Assembly: GCA_016200225.1 (NCBI GenBank)
Contig: JACQFD010000040.1
Span: forward strand, 1 to 64,000
Direction of reading: 5' to 3'
Length of the DNA: 64,000 nucleotides
DNA from: Planctomycetota bacterium
GTDB lineage: Bacteria; Planctomycetota; UBA1135; JACQFD01
Below, one piece after another: positions 3,303 to 11,527 of this stretch. Below the pieces are notes generated by a model that was given only the letters and a program-made list of their open reading frames with translations, was not told the origin of the DNA and did not search any database. A program made the position numbers and the translations under genes. Within the stretch, counting starts at the first letter, position 1; every line of letters begins with the position of its first letter.

Positions 3303-4136
3303 TTACTGCCGTAAGAGTTGTATCGCGGCCTGCGGTTGTAAATTAGCCTGACCGAGAATGGCCGTCGCGGCCTGCTGCAAAATCGAGTTTCGAGTCAGGT
3401 CGGCCGACTCGGACGCAACGTCGACGTCGCGAATGCGCGACTCGGCGGCGGCCAGATTTTCAATGGAAACGTTCAAGCTCGAAATCGTCGATTGCAAACG
3501 ATTCTGCGCGGCGCCGAAGCGGCCTCGCGACGTGTTTACACTGTCGATCGCGATATTAAGATTTCCGATGACGCTATCGATGTCCGACATGCACACCGTG
3601 TTCAACGTGAGAGGCAACAGATTGAGCGTCGTCGCGGTGACGTCGGTCAGCGAAGTCGTGAATGTATCAATACCGGCGCTGACGCCGTCTCCGACTTGAA
3701 ATGTAATATTCGAAACGGAGTTCAGCAGCGTGACGCCGCCGTAACTTGTAGCATTCGCGTTTCGGTCGATGGCTTGGATGAGGGATTGAAATTCATCATC
3801 CAGCGTGGCTCGATCCGACGAGCTCGACGTGCCGTTGCGCGCCTGCACCGCCAGTTCCTTCATACGCGAAAGAATCGAAGAGTTTTCGCTCAACGCTCCT
3901 TCCGCGGTTTGCACAAGCGAAATGCCATCATTGGCATTTCTAACAGATTGTTGCAGCGACCGGACCTTGGCGCGAAGCCGCTCGCTGATTGCGAGGCCGG
4001 CCGCGTCGTCAGCCGCGCTGGCGATGCGCAAACCAGACGCCAGACGGCTGTAGTTTCGCTGAAGTCGCAGGGTGACTTCCTGCAAGTTCCGCTGTGCAAC
4101 GATCGACGAAATGTTGGTATTTACACGAAGTCCCAT
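3303..4136 (-). CDS. fliC: Flagellin (copy 1)
   Basis: This is the structural subunit of the flagellar filament, exported through the flagellar type III system. The 277 residues include the conserved N-terminal D0/D1 helices (GLRVNTNISSIVAQRNL, then LASGLRI and the DDAAGLAISERLR motif) and the C-terminal D1/D0 helices (NRLQSTISSLN, RDVDVASESADLTR, ILQQAATAILGQAN). Only about 60 residues lie between them, so the D2/D3 outer domains are absent. It is close to the copies at 4440 and 10688 but differs in the middle (TLNLLPLTLNTVCMSDIDS). A GAGG sequence lies seven bases before the ATG. It sits 300 bases downstream of copy 2, with a set of hairpins between them. Confidence 0.95.
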   Translation of the reverse strand: MGLRVNTNISSIVAQRNLQEVTLRLQRNYSRLASGLRIASAADDAAGLAISERLRAKVRSLQQSVRNANDGISLVQTAEGALSENSSILSRMKELAVQARNGTSSSSDRATLDDEFQSLIQAIDRNANATSYGGVTLLNSVSNITFQVGDGVSAGIDTFTTSLTDVTATTLNLLPLTLNTVCMSDIDSVIGNLNIAIDSVNTSRGRFGAAQNRLQSTISSLNVSIENLAAAESRIRDVDVASESADLTRNSILQQAATAILGQANLQPQAAIQLLRQ

Positions 4137-4439: not shown

Positions 4440-5279
4440 TTATCGGAGCAGCGTCAGTGCGGCTTGCGGCTGCAGGTTCGCTTGACCGAGGATGGCGGTC
4501 GCAGCTTGTTGCAGAATTGAATTCCGCGTCAAGTCTCCGGATTCGAAAGCAACGTCGACGTCGCGGACGCGCGACTCGGCCGAGCTCAGGTTTTCCGAAG
4601 AAATCTGCAAGCTGTTAATCGTGGATCCGAGGCGGTTCTGAGCCGCGCCGAACTGGCCGCGCGTTGTATTCAATGTATTAATCGCGGAGTCGAGCGAGGT
4701 AATGACGCTGTCAATCGTCGTCGAACACGATGTATTTACCGTCAATGTACCCACGTTCAAACCCGTGCTCGCCGTCGAAACGTCCGCTAACGACGTTGTA
4801 AATGTATCAACATTGCTCGTCGTGCCGTCGCCGACCTGAAATGTAACAGTTCCTGTCGCGGAGTTCAGGAGGCTGTTGCCGCCGAAACTTGTAGCGGTTG
4901 CGTTTCGATCCAAAGCGCCAATGAGCGACTGGAATTCGTTATCAAGCGTTGCACGGTCCGAGGAACTCGAAGTTCCGTTTCGCGCTTGGACGGCGAGTTC
5001 CTTCATACGCGCGAGAATATTGGAATCCTCGCTGAGCGCGCCTTCCGCGGTTTGAACCAGCGAAATGCCATCGTTAGCATTTCGAACTGCTTGGTTAATG
5101 GAACGGATCTTGACTCGAAGGCGCTCGCTGATCGCGAGACCCGCGGCGTCGTCGGACGCATTTGCAATGCGAAGACCCGAAGCCAAATGACTGTAATTCT
5201 TCTGAAGCCGTCCGGTCACCTCGGCGAGGTGGCGCTGGGCGACAATTGAAGAAACGTTGGTATTTACTCGAAGACCCAT
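4440..5279 (-). CDS. fliC: Flagellin (copy 2)
   Basis: This is a 279-residue flagellin with the complete D0/D1 N- and C-terminal helices and a short central segment. The N-terminus MGLRVNTNVSSIVAQRHL and the terminal ILQQAATAILGQANLQPQAA are almost identical to the other two copies. The middle (VGTLTVNTSCSTTIDSVITS) aligns better with the copy at 10688 than with the one at 3303. It is preceded by a good sigma-28-type promoter at 5376-5402, giving a leader of about 90 bases. It is likely the strongly expressed first gene of the group. The binding site before the ATG is weak (AAGGGGTG, about ten bases away). Confidence 0.95.
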   Translation of the reverse strand: MGLRVNTNVSSIVAQRHLAEVTGRLQKNYSHLASGLRIANASDDAAGLAISERLRVKIRSINQAVRNANDGISLVQTAEGALSEDSNILARMKELAVQARNGTSSSSDRATLDNEFQSLIGALDRNATATSFGGNSLLNSATGTVTFQVGDGTTSNVDTFTTSLADVSTASTGLNVGTLTVNTSCSTTIDSVITSLDSAINTLNTTRGQFGAAQNRLGSTINSLQISSENLSSAESRVRDVDVAFESGDLTRNSILQQAATAILGQANLQPQAALTLLR

Positions 5280-5671: not shown

Positions 5672-8197
5672 TCACGGCGCCACAAGTGTAATATTCAATC
5701 GGTTGGATGAACTCAATCCGAGTGGCGAAGGAGTGCAAGGGCCCGCGGACCAGAGCCAAAGGGCTTGTAAATAAAACACTTGCCCGATGAGATTTGTATC
5801 GATGGGAATACCTGTTGAGATGTAACCCATGCCGGACGCGTCGCTCGACATGTCGAGGGGGAAGAATGCGGGAGAGGTTAGATCGACGAGGAGATTGAGC
5901 CCAAGTCCAAACGGATCTCCATCGATCGCCTGATCGCTGATAAGTAAGATTCCGAGCGAACTTGCGGGCGCGTTCGAGCAGCGAAGTTCAAAACTTGCAT
6001 TATTAATATTCGGCGGCGACTCGGCGAAGAGCACCTGCGGCCCGTTGCAGCCGGAAGTGCCGGCGCCGTAGTTGGAAATGGGTAGTTCTAACTTTGTGAC
6101 AAAGGCGCTCGCAAAGCCGACGCCGTCAAAAACAGGATCAAACGACATAGAAGTTGTTGGAAATGTCGTTGAGTAGGTCTTGCCTCCAAAATAAACACAT
6201 CCCGACGCGTCTAATGTAACACCCACTCCGTAGTCCGCATCGTTTCCCCCCAAGTAGGTCGAGTAAACCAGCTTGTTCCCTTTGCTGTTAAACTTGGTTA
6301 TTACAACATCGTTATTACCATTCGGAGTCGCCACCTTGCTGTATGCACCCGGCGTCGTGGGGTAATCTGTTGCATTGGTGTAACCCAGTATCGTTGCTTG
6401 TCCCAAATCACTCAAGCTAACGTCAGTCAGAACAACACCACTGTTCGCTCCAAGGTATGTGGAGTAAACAATACCGGTGCCGGTAGGATTAAGGATCGTC
6501 AAATATCCGTCAGCCACGTTTTTCAATTTCGTTTGATATGCACCGTGGGATGTTGGAAAATCGGCGGATGCAGTATATCCGACGGTTGCAGCGAGACCGG
6601 AATTATTAATAGCAATGCGATATGGAAATTCCTGTCCAATGCCGCCTACAATTGTAGAATACACGATTGCACCCGTGGGGCTGAATTTCGCAACAAATGT
6701 GTCGCCTGCACCCTTGTAATTTGGCATCCAAGCGCCGGGAGTGGTAGGAAATCCGGACGATCCCGCAAGACCCATCACATAAGCAGATGCGGTGTTGTCG
6801 AGGGCGATGGCCCTTCCTTGATCACCTCCGTTTCCGCCCCAAAATGTTGAATACAGGAGCGCTGATCCGGCGGAATTCAGTTTTGTTATAAATGCTCCTG
6901 ACACGACATTTAGCACTGTGTCGGCAGCACCTGGCGTGACGGGAAAATCTGTTGAGTATGTAGTACCGGTTACGTGCGCTTCGCCGGCGAAATTAGATGC
7001 CAATCCTCCTGCGAGATCATCCCCCGTGCCGCCTAGATACGTAGAGTATAAAAGAGCACTTCCATTGGGGCTCAGTTTGGTGGCCACCGTGTCGCGGTTG
7101 CTAAGAGACGTGTTGAATGTTGTATCAAATGCGCCGACGGTTGTTGGGTAATTGGAGGATCTTGATGTACCATTCACAAGGACATTTCCCACGCCATCCA
7201 GTGACAGTCCGCCATCCCATTCATCCTTCGATCCCCCGAGAAACGTGGAGAATACAAGGCCATTTCCACTCGCATTTAACACTGTAACGAAGAGGTCCGT
7301 GAATCCCTGAAACGTTGATCCCACAGTATTCGGAAAATCGAAGGCTCCTGTTCTACCGGTGACATAACAATTAAGGGCCGAGTCCGTCGTGACCGCTGCA
7401 ACCCCGTCGTCCCAAGACGATCCTTCGAGATAAGTAGAATACACAATCCCGGGATCAATCACGAGTTGGCTTTCCGGATGGTGTTCACCCAACTTGAATG
7501 AAAACCTTGAGCCGCCAAGAAGTGTGAATTCACATGATAACGGCTGGCGATTTCCTCTGCAGTCGAATTCGTACGTAGTCGGTCGCAGTTGTGTCAGCGG
7601 GCCGGCGCTTGTATGTAAATTCAAATTTCCATTCTCATCCAACGATAATGATTCTGCGCCGTGGCATGCAATGATTAGATTCGCGACGTCCGCACCTGGC
7701 GCGATCTCAAGATCGTATTCCAGAAGTCCGTCGCGGGAGTGAATCAGCAGGTCGACGCCATTGTAAAGATTGTTGTATCGAACGCCGGCAAACGACGGAA
7801 TTCCGGGATGCCAGTCGGATTCGTTTGCGCCAAGAAAAAAGTTATCTTGAGCCTTCGATTCGCCGACGCCTTTAATGGTAATATTCTGATTTCCGCCCTC
7901 GAAGGCAAGGAAAATAATCGACGACCGCGGCTCACAAGCCGAGCCATCGATTGTCTTCGTTGCAACTTCGATGGCGATTCCACGTTCTGTAAAATATGTC
8001 ACCGCGTGGCCGATTTTCGCGGCAAACTTCGCCCCGCGACTCCATTGGCCGCAGTTTTCCAAAAGATGGAGGCCGCCCGTCGGACGGGTGACCTCCTGAT
8101 TCACCATGGGTTCGGTTAATGAGTGGTCTGGAATCCCGCGCTGCAAAATGGGAAACGCGTAGCAGAAACATGTCAAAACCATAGATGTCGCGACCAT
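5672..8197 (-). CDS. Secreted SBBP beta-propeller protein
   Basis: This 841-residue protein starts with a short hydrophobic export signal. Residues 40-250 look like the N-terminal domain that precedes SBBP propellers (LLENCGQWSRGAKF near residue 45, FLGANESDWHPGIPSFAGVRY near 121). Seven repeats from about residue 251 to 690 carry the SBBP signature Y/F-S-T-(Y/F)-L-G-G (VYSTYLEG, VFSTFLGG, LYSTYLGG, LYSTFWGG, VYSTIVGG and two more), matching a seven-bladed propeller. Residues 710-841 form a Cys-containing beta domain (YGAGTSGCNGPQ, then LVDLTSPAFFPLDMSSDASG) of a type I associate with planctomycete secreted proteins. It starts 13 bases after the oxidase-like gene, so the two form an operon. 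The function is unknown, probably cell-surface adhesion or recognition. Confidence 0.85.
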   Translation of the reverse strand: MVATSMVLTCFCYAFPILQRGIPDHSLTEPMVNQEVTRPTGGLHLLENCGQWSRGAKFAAKIGHAVTYFTERGIAIEVATKTIDGSACEPRSSIIFLAFEGGNQNITIKGVGESKAQDNFFLGANESDWHPGIPSFAGVRYNNLYNGVDLLIHSRDGLLEYDLEIAPGADVANLIIACHGAESLSLDENGNLNLHTSAGPLTQLRPTTYEFDCRGNRQPLSCEFTLLGGSRFSFKLGEHHPESQLVIDPGIVYSTYLEGSSWDDGVAAVTTDSALNCYVTGRTGAFDFPNTVGSTFQGFTDLFVTVLNASGNGLVFSTFLGGSKDEWDGGLSLDGVGNVLVNGTSRSSNYPTTVGAFDTTFNTSLSNRDTVATKLSPNGSALLYSTYLGGTGDDLAGGLASNFAGEAHVTGTTYSTDFPVTPGAADTVLNVVSGAFITKLNSAGSALLYSTFWGGNGGDQGRAIALDNTASAYVMGLAGSSGFPTTPGAWMPNYKGAGDTFVAKFSPTGAIVYSTIVGGIGQEFPYRIAINNSGLAATVGYTASADFPTSHGAYQTKLKNVADGYLTILNPTGTGIVYSTYLGANSGVVLTDVSLSDLGQATILGYTNATDYPTTPGAYSKVATPNGNNDVVITKFNSKGNKLVYSTYLGGNDADYGVGVTLDASGCVYFGGKTYSTTFPTTSMSFDPVFDGVGFASAFVTKLELPISNYGAGTSGCNGPQVLFAESPPNINNASFELRCSNAPASSLGILLISDQAIDGDPFGLGLNLLVDLTSPAFFPLDMSSDASGMGYISTGIPIDTNLIGQVFYLQALWLWSAGPCTPSPLGLSSSNRLNITLVAP

Positions 8198-8210: not shown

Positions 8211-10136
8211 CTATTGTAAGTTAACCCATAGGGCGACCGATGGAATGCCCTGATACCACGAGGGCGCCCCAGCGGGTGGCGGACTCACAACAAATAGCAT
8301 ATACCACCCGGGAGGCGCGAGGCGCTCGCCCGTGGGGTTGGGTGGAATCGCAATATTCAATGAAAAGGCGGTCCCCGTCGGCGTTCCGTGGGTCACCGCC
8401 AGTTCAATATACCGTTGATCCGCGTCGAAGGCGTGGGTGACGGAGCCGGGACGCATCAAGACTGCCTTGATCGACTGGTTCGTCGGATTGTTACGGATAT
8501 CAACCGAAAGTTGTAACGAACCGCCGTAGTTAATATTTGTGTTCGGCGTTCCCAGAATCCGGGGTCTCGGTCCTTGAAACAGATAGGGCGGGCTTAAAAC
8601 CTCCATCATCTGATCGGAATTTGTCAACCCCGGGACGTTTACGCCGCCCAAGCACATGATCCGACCATCAGGTAACAATAATGCAGTCGAATGGTAGAGA
8701 CGCGGACAAATGTGCCTGTTGAGCTTGCTCCAGAATCCAGGGAGGTTTGGAAACAGGCCAATATCAAATAACTCCGGTTCGAAAACCGGCATGGGCGCGA
8801 CCGCGCCCGAGCCCGGCGCTGTGCTGGGCGGCACCAGCGGTACGGGAAATTCGCCGGCGCTCGGAAGACCCGATTGGATTGCATTTGAATATTTATAATC
8901 ATTTTCAGAGCCGCCGACAATCACAACTCTTCCGGTCGGCAGGATCACACTATTGGCATATTGGCGTCCAAATGCTGGTGCGCCCGTGCCACCGAACGCT
9001 GGATTCTTTGGATATCGCATCGGTGTCCCAAATCCGAACCCCGAAAACTCATCAATTGTATTGAGCGCCGGCCACGGGTTTGTCGGCGTTGGCTGTGGCG
9101 GTGCCGCGCCCGTATTATTACCAAAGGCCGATCCATAACCCCAGAATACGCGATCGACTTGTCCCAATTGATGAATAATAAACCCCGTGCCGTCTTCCCT
9201 TTGTGTGTACGGAAGTCCGGTATACGTCGTCATCACATTTACGCCGCTCGCGGGCGGTGCGGGCGCTGCATAATTAATTCGATAAGAATCGACGATTTGT
9301 ATTAAACTTGTAAACGGAGTGTACTGCTCCTGATCCGACAGCATAATTGTGGATCCGTCGGATAATTGGAACACTCGCGGATACGTTGCGATGGTCGTCG
9401 GATTCGATGCATCAAATGCTGACGTCCAGGGATTTGTTCCGCTTGGTGTTCCCGGTGTATAAATATTCCATTCCTTGATGGGGCCCGACGCAGTGGCGGT
9501 GCCCGAGCTTCCGCCGAGAACGAGGACTTCATCTGTATCAAGCGTGATTGCCATCGGATACCAACGACTGAATCCCATCGTATTTGAGATTTTTGTAAAT
9601 GTAGAGTTCGCAGGATCGAATACATATCCGACGTCGGCGAGCTGGACGTTGTTGCCTCCCCCAGGGCAAGTATCCACAACATCTCCGCCCGGTTTCGCAT
9701 TGCCGCCCATGATAATTAGCTTTCCATCTTTTGTCCATGTATGTCCGCTACAGAACATGTCGGAGTCGACGGGTGGCGGGTTCGCTGACCATAAATCAAT
9801 GGTCCGGACACCGAGGGTTGACGGGTTCAAGGCCCAAGCCCGATACGTCCGCGCATTCGTTAGATATGCGGAGCCGCCGCCTGGGAGTGGACAATTATGA
9901 GTTGCGTACCCAATTTGAAAATTCCAAACCAAGACTTCTGAACTATTGGGAATGAGCGCGGCATGGCCTATTTCGTAGTCTTGAACATAGGTACTCCCCG
10001 AAAACAGAACTCCATTTGTTTCAAATATTGGGACGCCCGTCGGCGGATTTTGAAACAAACCCAAATCGTAAGGTCCCGCGAACTGACCTCCCTGATCGAC
10101 CGGTAATTGTGCATTTACAGATCGTGAAGATAACAA
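8211..10136 (-). CDS. Secreted galactose-oxidase-like (radical copper oxidase) protein, 5' end frame-disrupted
   Basis: Kelch-type blades fill about residues 55-510 and a DUF1929 early-set domain the last 120. Counting from the TTG at 10136, the residues of the copper-radical site of galactose and glyoxal oxidases are all present: C129 (DMFCSGHT), Y193 (RWYPMAI), Y481-H482 (RLYHSTALLLPDGR) and H568 (RPGSVTHAFDADQR). An extracellular alcohol or aldehyde oxidase producing peroxide is likely. The TTG start is unsatisfactory: the same frame continues upstream into a signal-peptide-like LYLLYLFGVAALL with no start codon before a TAG. A proper ATG with a strong binding site lies at 10290 in another frame, separated by a run of ten G (10212-10221). 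The gene is therefore either switched off by tract length or affected by a sequencing error. Confidence 0.8.
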   Translation of the reverse strand: MLSSRSVNAQLPVDQGGQFAGPYDLGLFQNPPTGVPIFETNGVLFSGSTYVQDYEIGHAALIPNSSEVLVWNFQIGYATHNCPLPGGGSAYLTNARTYRAWALNPSTLGVRTIDLWSANPPPVDSDMFCSGHTWTKDGKLIIMGGNAKPGGDVVDTCPGGGNNVQLADVGYVFDPANSTFTKISNTMGFSRWYPMAITLDTDEVLVLGGSSGTATASGPIKEWNIYTPGTPSGTNPWTSAFDASNPTTIATYPRVFQLSDGSTIMLSDQEQYTPFTSLIQIVDSYRINYAAPAPPASGVNVMTTYTGLPYTQREDGTGFIIHQLGQVDRVFWGYGSAFGNNTGAAPPQPTPTNPWPALNTIDEFSGFGFGTPMRYPKNPAFGGTGAPAFGRQYANSVILPTGRVVIVGGSENDYKYSNAIQSGLPSAGEFPVPLVPPSTAPGSGAVAPMPVFEPELFDIGLFPNLPGFWSKLNRHICPRLYHSTALLLPDGRIMCLGGVNVPGLTNSDQMMEVLSPPYLFQGPRPRILGTPNTNINYGGSLQLSVDIRNNPTNQSIKAVLMRPGSVTHAFDADQRYIELAVTHGTPTGTAFSLNIAIPPNPTGERLAPPGWYMLFVVSPPPAGAPSWYQGIPSVALWVNLQ

Positions 10137-10211
10137 AGCTGCAACTCCGAATAGATATAATAAATAAAGCCGCGATCGATGATGATAATGATTACGACAA
10201 TTCGGCCGTTG

Positions 10212-10221
10212 CCCCCCCCCC
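10212..10221. repeat. Homopolymer C10 (G10 on the gene strand), frame-breaking
   Basis: Ten C in a row lie in the 5' coding part of the galactose-oxidase-like gene. Nine or twelve would join the upstream ATG frame (from 10290) to the oxidase frame without any stop codon; ten leads to TAA about 20 bases after the tract. Such runs are classic slipped-strand phase-variation sites for surface genes, and are also the usual place for sequencing length errors. Confidence 0.9.
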
Positions 10222-10290
10222 TAAGCTCGTTTTATTGAAAAAACCGCCATTGCCGCCGCGCGGCAAGAAATTTTGCGAAGACGAAGGCAT
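10222..10290 (-). other. Displaced true 5' end of the galactose-oxidase-like gene
   Basis: ATG at 10290 is preceded by GAGGAG (10303-10298) with seven bases between, the best ribosome binding site in this region. It opens 23 codons (MPSSSQNFLPRGG...) up to the G run. If the run were nine, the product would read through GGGQRPNC and then RLYLLYLFGVAALLSSRSVNAQ, which is a plausible signal peptide with a cleavage site after VNA. This reconstructs a normal secreted oxidase starting here. Confidence 0.7.
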
Positions 10291-10687
10291 GCACGATCTC
10301 CTCGGCATCGCTCGGAGCGCATGATTGCGGTACGTTGCGAGGCCGAATCAAGTAGACGCCTGCGGTTGATTCCTGTCAATGGCGGGCGGCCTTGGAAATT
10401 GTCTGGCGTGCTGTGACTCACTGCCAAGAAGCTCATCATCACGATTCAGTTGTGTCGTTTGAATATTGGTAGTCCATTCGAAAAAGGCGCCACGCAGGCC
10501 CAGTCTCGCGGATGCCGCGCTGCCAGTGGCGGCACTCCCCGACCACGGCGGTGATTCGTCACGACAGCCGGGGTTTGTTATTAACTGGTATGTCACCATA
10601 TAAAGAAACCGGGGAGCACGTTTGCGGCGTACTCCCCGGTTGGGTGGGAAACAAACTCTGCGATTACAAACGATCCGAGATTATTTC
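10291..10687. other. Intergenic region between flagellin copy 3 and the oxidase operon
   Basis: These roughly 400 bases contain the terminator of flagellin copy 3 (listed separately) and the leader of the oxidase operon. A 73-codon minus-strand frame (10221-10442) ends at the TAG beside the G run and has no recognisable features. I cannot point to a convincing promoter. Confidence 0.5.
10607..10641 (-). terminator. Terminator of flagellin copy 3
   Basis: AACCGGGGAG (10607-10616) pairs without mismatch with CTCCCCGGTT (10632-10641) around a 15-base loop. On the minus strand the stem is followed by TCTTTATAT. It lies 46 bases after the flagellin stop codon and should end that transcript before the oxidase operon. 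Confidence 0.65.
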
Positions 10688-11527
10688 TTATCCTCGTAAC
10701 AGTTGGATGGCGGCCTGCGGCTGGAGGTTGGCCTGTCCGAGAATTGCGGTTGCCGCTTGTTGTAAGATCGAATTTCTCGTGAGATCTCCCGATTCGAGCG
10801 CGACGTCGACGTCTCGAATTCGAGACTCGGCCGCCGTCAGGTTCTCGGAGGATATTTGTAAACTCGAAATGGTCGACGTGAGGCGGTTTTGAGCCGCGCC
10901 GAACCGGCCGCGCGCGCTGTTGACGACATCGATCGCGCTGTCGACCGATGTGATGACGTTGTCAATTGTAGTCGTGCATGAACTGTTAATTGTGAGCGTC
11001 GACACCGCGAGCGCGCCGGTCGTCGTCACGTCCGCGAGGGACGTTGTATACGAATCCACGCCCGCCGTCGTGCCGTCGCCGACTTGGAATGTGATTGTTG
11101 ACGCCGAGCCGTCGAGCAGATTCACGCCGCCATAGGTTGTCGCGCTCGCGTTGCGACCGAGGGCCGCGATGAGAGACTGAAATTCATCATCGAGCGTCAC
11201 GCGGTCGGAGGAACTGGAGGTTCCGTTGCGCGCTTGGACGGCGAGTTCCTTCATGCGCGAAAGAATATTCGAATCCTCGCTGAGCGCGCCTTCCGCCGTT
11301 TGTACTAATGAAATTCCATCGTTAGCATTTCGAACGGCCTGTCCGACGGATCTTATCTTGGCGCGCAAGCGTTCGCTGATCGCGAGACCGGCGGCGTCGT
11401 CGGCCGCAACGGAGATGCGCAAGCCTGAGGCAAGGTGGCTGAAGTTTTTCTGCAAGCGCAACGTGACTTCCGATAAGTTGCGTTGCGCAACGATCGACGA
11501 AATGTTGGTATTTACACGAAGTCCCAT
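10688..11527 (-). CDS. fliC: Flagellin (copy 3)
   Basis: This is the third flagellin, 279 residues, again only D0/D1 helices with a short centre (ALAVSTLTINSSCTTTIDNV). It has an excellent ribosome binding site, AAGGAG six bases before the ATG, the best among the three copies. Its own terminator follows, and a sigma-28-like promoter lies about 120 bases upstream. It is separated from the other two copies by the secreted-protein operon on the same strand, so it is expressed independently. Different leader strengths suggest the three flagellins are made in different amounts and may form segments of a composite filament; this is inference. Confidence 0.95.
   Translation of the reverse strand: MGLRVNTNISSIVAQRNLSEVTLRLQKNFSHLASGLRISVAADDAAGLAISERLRAKIRSVGQAVRNANDGISLVQTAEGALSEDSNILSRMKELAVQARNGTSSSSDRVTLDDEFQSLIAALGRNASATTYGGVNLLDGSASTITFQVGDGTTAGVDSYTTSLADVTTTGALAVSTLTINSSCTTTIDNVITSVDSAIDVVNSARGRFGAAQNRLTSTISSLQISSENLTAAESRIRDVDVALESGDLTRNSILQQAATAILGQANLQPQAAIQLLRG

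Follow-up and report, generated by a model that had tools for sequence, protein, structure and literature searches.

Most work on phase variation by simple repeats concerns host-associated bacteria, both pathogens and commensals. Homopolymer tracts in coding genes have been argued to be a general device of prokaryotes (PMC2831843). The nearest anatomy to the locus described here is that of the sortase-pilus loci bbr_0113 and bbr_1889 of Bifidobacterium breve UCC2003, for which slippage was shown by maximum-depth sequencing (PMC9187656). There, 11-12 G placed within the leading gene of an operon separate the open reading frame of a Sec signal from that of the protein body, an arrangement shared with our locus, and the tract length sets the frame (PMC9187656). 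A similar arrangement is given by pilC of Neisseria, in which a poly-G tract at the 5' end of the coding sequence of a surface protein turns the frame ON or OFF, while fetA and porA carry a homopolymer between the -35 and -10 boxes, resembling the tracts on contigs C24, C34 and C31 treated below (PMC5320596).

The window, i.e. the whole analysed stretch of 64,000 nucleotides, contains a tract of ten G ahead of an oxidase gene. With a probability of roughly 0.85, we consider this to be a slipped-strand phase-variation (contingency) locus that switches a secreted copper-radical oxidase and probably the adjacent DUF7948 gene as well.

Architecture of the oxidase locus

The reading of the locus in an earlier note was confirmed: an ATG at 10290 with a GAGGAG site is followed by 23 sense codons, the ten G at 10212-10221 and the oxidase frame (Table 1). 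This frame opens directly past a TAG at 10223-10221 and stays open to 8211. It comprises a signal-peptide stretch and no ATG, GTG or TTG ahead of the hydrophobic core. The claimed frame arithmetic was likewise correct, since nine or twelve G join leader and oxidase, while ten do not. Past the leader the ATG frame reads GGG GGG GGG GCA ACG GCC GAA TTG TCG TAA, so that the stop expected within seven codons of the run is found as the TAA at 10194-10192. The third reading frame has a TAA stop ahead of the tract. With leader and oxidase frames out of phase at ten G, the assembled state corresponds to OFF.

Table 1. Positions of the features of the oxidase operon in the window, compared with the second copy on contig C35
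Feature	Position	Strand	Remarks
Putative -35 box TTGACA	10374..10379	-	Consensus match only; same in the C35 copy, also with 17-nt spacing
Putative -10 box TCTACT	10351..10356	-	17 nt past TTGACA; kept in the C35 copy
Ribosome-binding site GAGGAG	10298..10303	-	GGAG in the C35 copy, at equal distance to the ATG
Leader, ATG and 22 codons (MPSSSQNFLPRGGNGGFFNKTSL)	10222..10290	-	C35 leader aligns without indels, 57/69 identical
G10 homopolymer, proposed switch	10212..10221	-	Leader and oxidase joined at 3n lengths only (9, 12)
TAA closing the ATG frame at tract length ten	10192..10194	-	Earlier stop in the C35 copy, after AAAA
Signal peptide, oxidase frame	10110..10211	-	Hydrophobic core ~10169-10131; likely cleavage between VNA and QLP; near-invariant compared to the C35 copy
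Secreted galactose/glyoxal-oxidase-like protein	8211..10220	-	Frame intact, out of phase with the leader; Pfam PF07250, PF13964, PF09118
DUF7948/SBBP beta-propeller gene	5672..8197	-	Starts 13 nt past the oxidase stop; likely co-expressed; same order in the C35 copy

The first candidate start in the oxidase frame is a TTG at 10136, within the signal peptide. With a GGAG 7 nt upstream, weak initiation at this codon is possible; as the true start it was rejected, since it would remove the hydrophobic core from the signal peptide. An open reading frame caller starts the oxidase at exactly this TTG, and signal peptide and leader are lost. A function of the tract as promoter spacer, as assumed below for other loci, was also rejected: since TTGACA-17-TCTACT is kept upstream of the leader in both copies of the operon, the tract lies in the transcribed leader and not in the promoter, which is itself a predicted one. 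With just two copies in the genome, the leader does not represent a mobile or widespread 5' element. The surroundings of the operon comprise three closely similar flagellin genes (3303-4136, 4440-5279 and 10688-11527), the operon being located between the second and the third.

The G10 is the sole G/C run of at least eight within the window. It is a slippage-prone tandem repeat in a 5' coding region, at which unit changes switch the frame of an intact gene. In the proposed mechanism, slipped-strand mispairing during replication would lengthen or shorten the G tract, which is located in the 5' coding region of the two-gene operon. At nine or twelve G, translation from the ATG at 10290 would continue into the signal peptide and the oxidase (ON), while at ten, the assembled length, or eleven G it would end within about 10-35 codons (OFF). 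The tract length presumably varies within the population. Since the DUF7948 gene starts directly behind the oxidase stop, translational coupling is plausible, and the switch would probably also reach this beta-propeller protein, either by such coupling or by polarity. Loss of mismatch repair was not retained as a cause; MutS is present in the genome, which neither supports nor excludes the switch.

The oxidase and its predicted function

The body of the oxidase matches Glyoxal_oxid_N, Kelch_6 and GO-like_E_set, all above the curated Pfam cut-offs. The protein (P0001) was aligned with PDB 4unm, a secreted bacterial copper radical oxidase of the GlxA type. Both the C-terminal domain and the five copper-site residues align (C153, Y217, Y505-H506 and H592), so that the Cys-Tyr crosslink pair and the copper ligands of copper radical oxidases (Cys, Tyr, Tyr-His, His) are present. 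Based on these similarities, the gene product is predicted to be a secreted copper-radical-type oxidase, its substrate likewise being a prediction. With its signal peptide and oxidase domains, it is a surface or secreted target typical of phase-variable loci. Despite the OFF phase, the oxidase is open for more than 640 codons. The open frame and the intact active-site residues in an OFF gene argue against decay.

Second copy of the operon

The entire operon of leader, tract, oxidase and DUF7948 gene is repeated on contig C35 (L013, G000:C35:30000-40000), and the tract there also comprises ten G. An in-frame deletion has removed about 545 internal codons from the C35 oxidase and shortened it to 122 codons; what remains is the leader, the G10, the signal peptide and the final 26 codons, open up to the DUF7948 gene. 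The intact leader, G10 and DUF7948 gene beside the shortened oxidase give the impression of a switch retained for DUF7948.

Between the two copies, the DUF7948 proteins show 67% identity and their four-fold sites are near-saturated (129/311 the same). Although these sites have diverged to this extent, the frame relation of leader and G10 is kept at C35. In the block after the tract, 17/18 four-fold sites are identical, and in a signal-peptide block of ~65 nt (window 10103-10166) 63/64 bases are the same. The conservation of this block could originate from a recent gene conversion or from constraint at the nucleotide level.

Long G/C runs in the genome

The background frequency of runs was determined in a 404-kb sample of the 5.31-Mb genome, while the long runs were located by pattern searches. 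The sample contained 186, 23 and 2 G/C runs of 5, 6 and 7, respectively. By extrapolation, approximately 3 runs of 8, 0.4 of at least 9 and ~0.05 of at least 10 would be expected in 5.31 Mb, compared to 3 of 8, 1 of 9, 3 of 10 and 4 of 12 found, i.e. seven of at least 10 (Poisson p ~1e-13, and still 1e-8 with a generous ratio). Based on this comparison of observed and extrapolated counts, the long runs form a separate class. The same-family genome G001 showed no comparable set of G runs, most of its runs being located in GC-rich or contig-edge sequence. Among 41 related genomes, the number of G/C runs of at least 9 ranged from 2 to 318 per genome, the effect of G+C content not being separated.

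Genes for exported proteins carry most of the eight runs of at least nine at their 5' ends, either as a frame switch or just past a -35 box; for comparison, an exported-protein start lies at most 250 nt downstream of ~5% of random genome positions. On contig C12, a start codon and a signal peptide are followed by a G12 (L008 5463-5474; G000:C12:127462-127473), past which an 843-codon DUF7948/SBBP body lies in a different frame. This would be a second translational switch in the OFF state. On contig C40, the gene of an FG-GAP protein has a run of nine C (L014 5296-5304) within its signal-peptide region, in frame (ON). Three runs, two of twelve G (C24b, L010 5292-5303; C34, L012 5001-5012) and one of twelve C (C31, L011 4646-4657), begin 1-7 nt past TTGAC upstream of exported-protein genes, the C34 gene being another oxidase paralogue. 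Since C24b and C34 have -10-like hexamers at a distance of 18-19 nt, and all three share the TTGAC position, these runs are likely promoter-spacer switches. The G10 designated C24a (L009 4800-4809; G000:C24:132799-132808) is intergenic, ~125 nt before the gene of an AAA_14/DUF4143 ATPase.

Oxidase homologues and promoter-type tracts across the order

Homologues of the oxidase were found across the order; among the genomes returned, no other belonged to the genus. The 5' ends were read for 20 homologue loci of the order outside the present genome, protein similarity being the sole basis of their selection. This comparison with related genomes, as proposed in the earlier note, gave the strongest evidence for the switch: an unstable 5' repeat was present in 9/20 loci, a count that leaves out L067 (noticed because of its run) and includes three paralogues, L295, L297 and L298, which are not independent. 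The remaining 11/20 loci showed no 5' repeat. The repeats differed in unit and copy number, and several were out of frame as in the window. The same layout as in the window, also out of frame, was found at L308 (G004), with a G9 after MSSRTERIVL. Further out-of-frame repeats were a run of eleven C at the end of the signal peptide in L301/L020 (G036) and (AGCTCCCC)5 directly past the ATG in L304 (G027), while (ACTC)7, likewise directly past the ATG, was in frame in L306 (G019). L302 (G026) contained (TCTCC)6, and the signal peptides of the three paralogues of the same-family genome G001 contained the 8-base repeat (CGCTCTCT) in 3, 3 and 6 copies, respectively. At L312 (G032), a G9 was located upstream, the adjacent DUF7948 gene being in the opposite direction. 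The variety of repeat units suggests a repeated origin. As a side observation, L297 and L298 have an upstream GTG with GAGGAG whose frame stops past the (CGCTCTCT) repeat.

A scripted scan of 26 loci yielded 11 with a repeat in a fixed 5' interval, compared to 0.22 expected from the remainder of those loci (p ~1e-15); this remainder contained just two repeats, at L301 and L304, and both turned out on reading to be 5' switches as well. Since the 26 loci include the window, the C35 copy and L067, the unbiased figure is 9/20.

The pattern TTGAC, 1-8 nt and at least nine G was present in 37/154 genomes of the order. Among 30 such loci that were read, an open reading frame for an exported protein followed within 250 nt in 13/30, compared to 0/21 when the pattern was reversed as a control (p 2.5e-4) and to 4/30 for unselected runs (p 0.01). 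A replicate of this test with C runs gave a weaker result (9/30 vs 7/53, p=0.06). Due to this weaker replicate, the wider promoter claim at the order level is of moderate strength, while the claim for the oxidase is strong. At L219 (G036), TTGACA is followed by a G15, and a small exported protein is encoded 64 nt downstream of this run.

Weighing of the explanations

The earlier note had left two options, a phase-variable or a mis-sequenced tract. An error of sequencing or assembly would mean a true tract of nine (or twelve) G and a plainly intact gene with a long n-region of the signal peptide. Homopolymers of this length are indeed error-prone, the oxidase frame is intact, and the paralogues L002 and L003 comprise uninterrupted signal regions with long n-regions. 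However, a one-base error cannot make a tract of at least nine bases, and the site would be prone to slippage even at nine G. Ten G are likewise read in the independent C35 copy, the runs of at least ten in the genome concentrate at the 5' ends of exported genes or in promoter spacers, and in homologues this place is occupied by repeats with units of 4, 5 and 8 bases, some of them also out of frame. Since an error may add or remove one base but could not give rise to this pattern, we regard it as an unlikely explanation, and phase variation is strongly favoured by the tract of the second copy, the concentration of runs at 5' ends and the differing repeats in the signal-peptide region of homologues from other families of the order. 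Even less probable is the decay of the gene, in which the frameshift would be an ordinary inactivating mutation. The C35 oxidase without its ~545 internal codons could point in this direction, but that deletion is in frame, and in the window more than 640 codons are open, the five copper-site residues are kept and the frameshift lies at a hypermutable tract; decay is thus scarcely credible.

A programmed recoding, in which transcriptional slippage or ribosomal frameshifting at a fixed G10 would yield a constant fraction of oxidase, is compatible with exactly ten G in both copies and with the nucleotide-level conservation of the block that surrounds and follows the tract (17/18 four-fold sites and 63/64 bases unchanged). 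Nonetheless, the downstream RNA structure did not exceed that of shuffled sequences (z +0.7 and +1.3), and a structural basis for frameshifting was rejected, neither a stimulatory structure nor a conserved slippery site being found. Transcriptional slippage needs no RNA structure. The repeats of the homologues are unrelated to each other and better suited to replication slippage, and other tracts of the genome are located in promoters, where recoding has no effect. Recoding keeps a small share, owing to the ten G found within the conserved block of either copy, and is judged very unlikely; the two tracts of ten within an unusually conserved block would also fit gene conversion.

Altogether, slipped-strand phase variation is the preferred reading of the window locus. 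For the broader view, the chances appear about even: phase variation of secreted copper-radical oxidases may have evolved repeatedly throughout an order of environmental bacteria, separate lineages having placed different repeats (G, C, 4-, 5- and 8-mers) in the same signal-peptide region, so that only a fraction of a clone would make an extracellular peroxide-forming enzyme. The oxidases would then belong to a larger group of exported proteins, others of which are switched by poly-G tracts in their promoters.

Comparison with known systems

The signature of phase variation is found here in a family of enzymes for which switching is not known. Searches of the full-text literature returned nothing on point for phase variation in Planctomycetes/Planctomycetota or of galactose oxidase; while the mechanism is known, the oxidase target, the apparent repeated origin and the lineage seem to be unreported. 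A 16S fragment of the genome contains the general EUB338 site and looks planctomycete-like. The order seems to be environmental and uncultured. If the reading is true, repeat-based bet-hedging would serve something other than host immunity, perhaps a response to phage, predators or public-goods cheating, and open reading frame calling would generally miss such switches in metagenome-assembled genomes.

Compared to GlxA (4unm), the overall identity of the window oxidase is low, its 5' end is phase-variable in our reading, and its activity is a prediction. Contrary to Neisseria pilC, another protein in another lineage is concerned, and in contrast to fetA and porA, the promoter function of the C24, C34 and C31 tracts is read from the sequence only. 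The B. breve switch acts on pili of a gut commensal, while the locus of the window, known from assembled sequence alone, belongs to another lineage, concerns a secreted oxidase and carries its tract before the core of the signal peptide.
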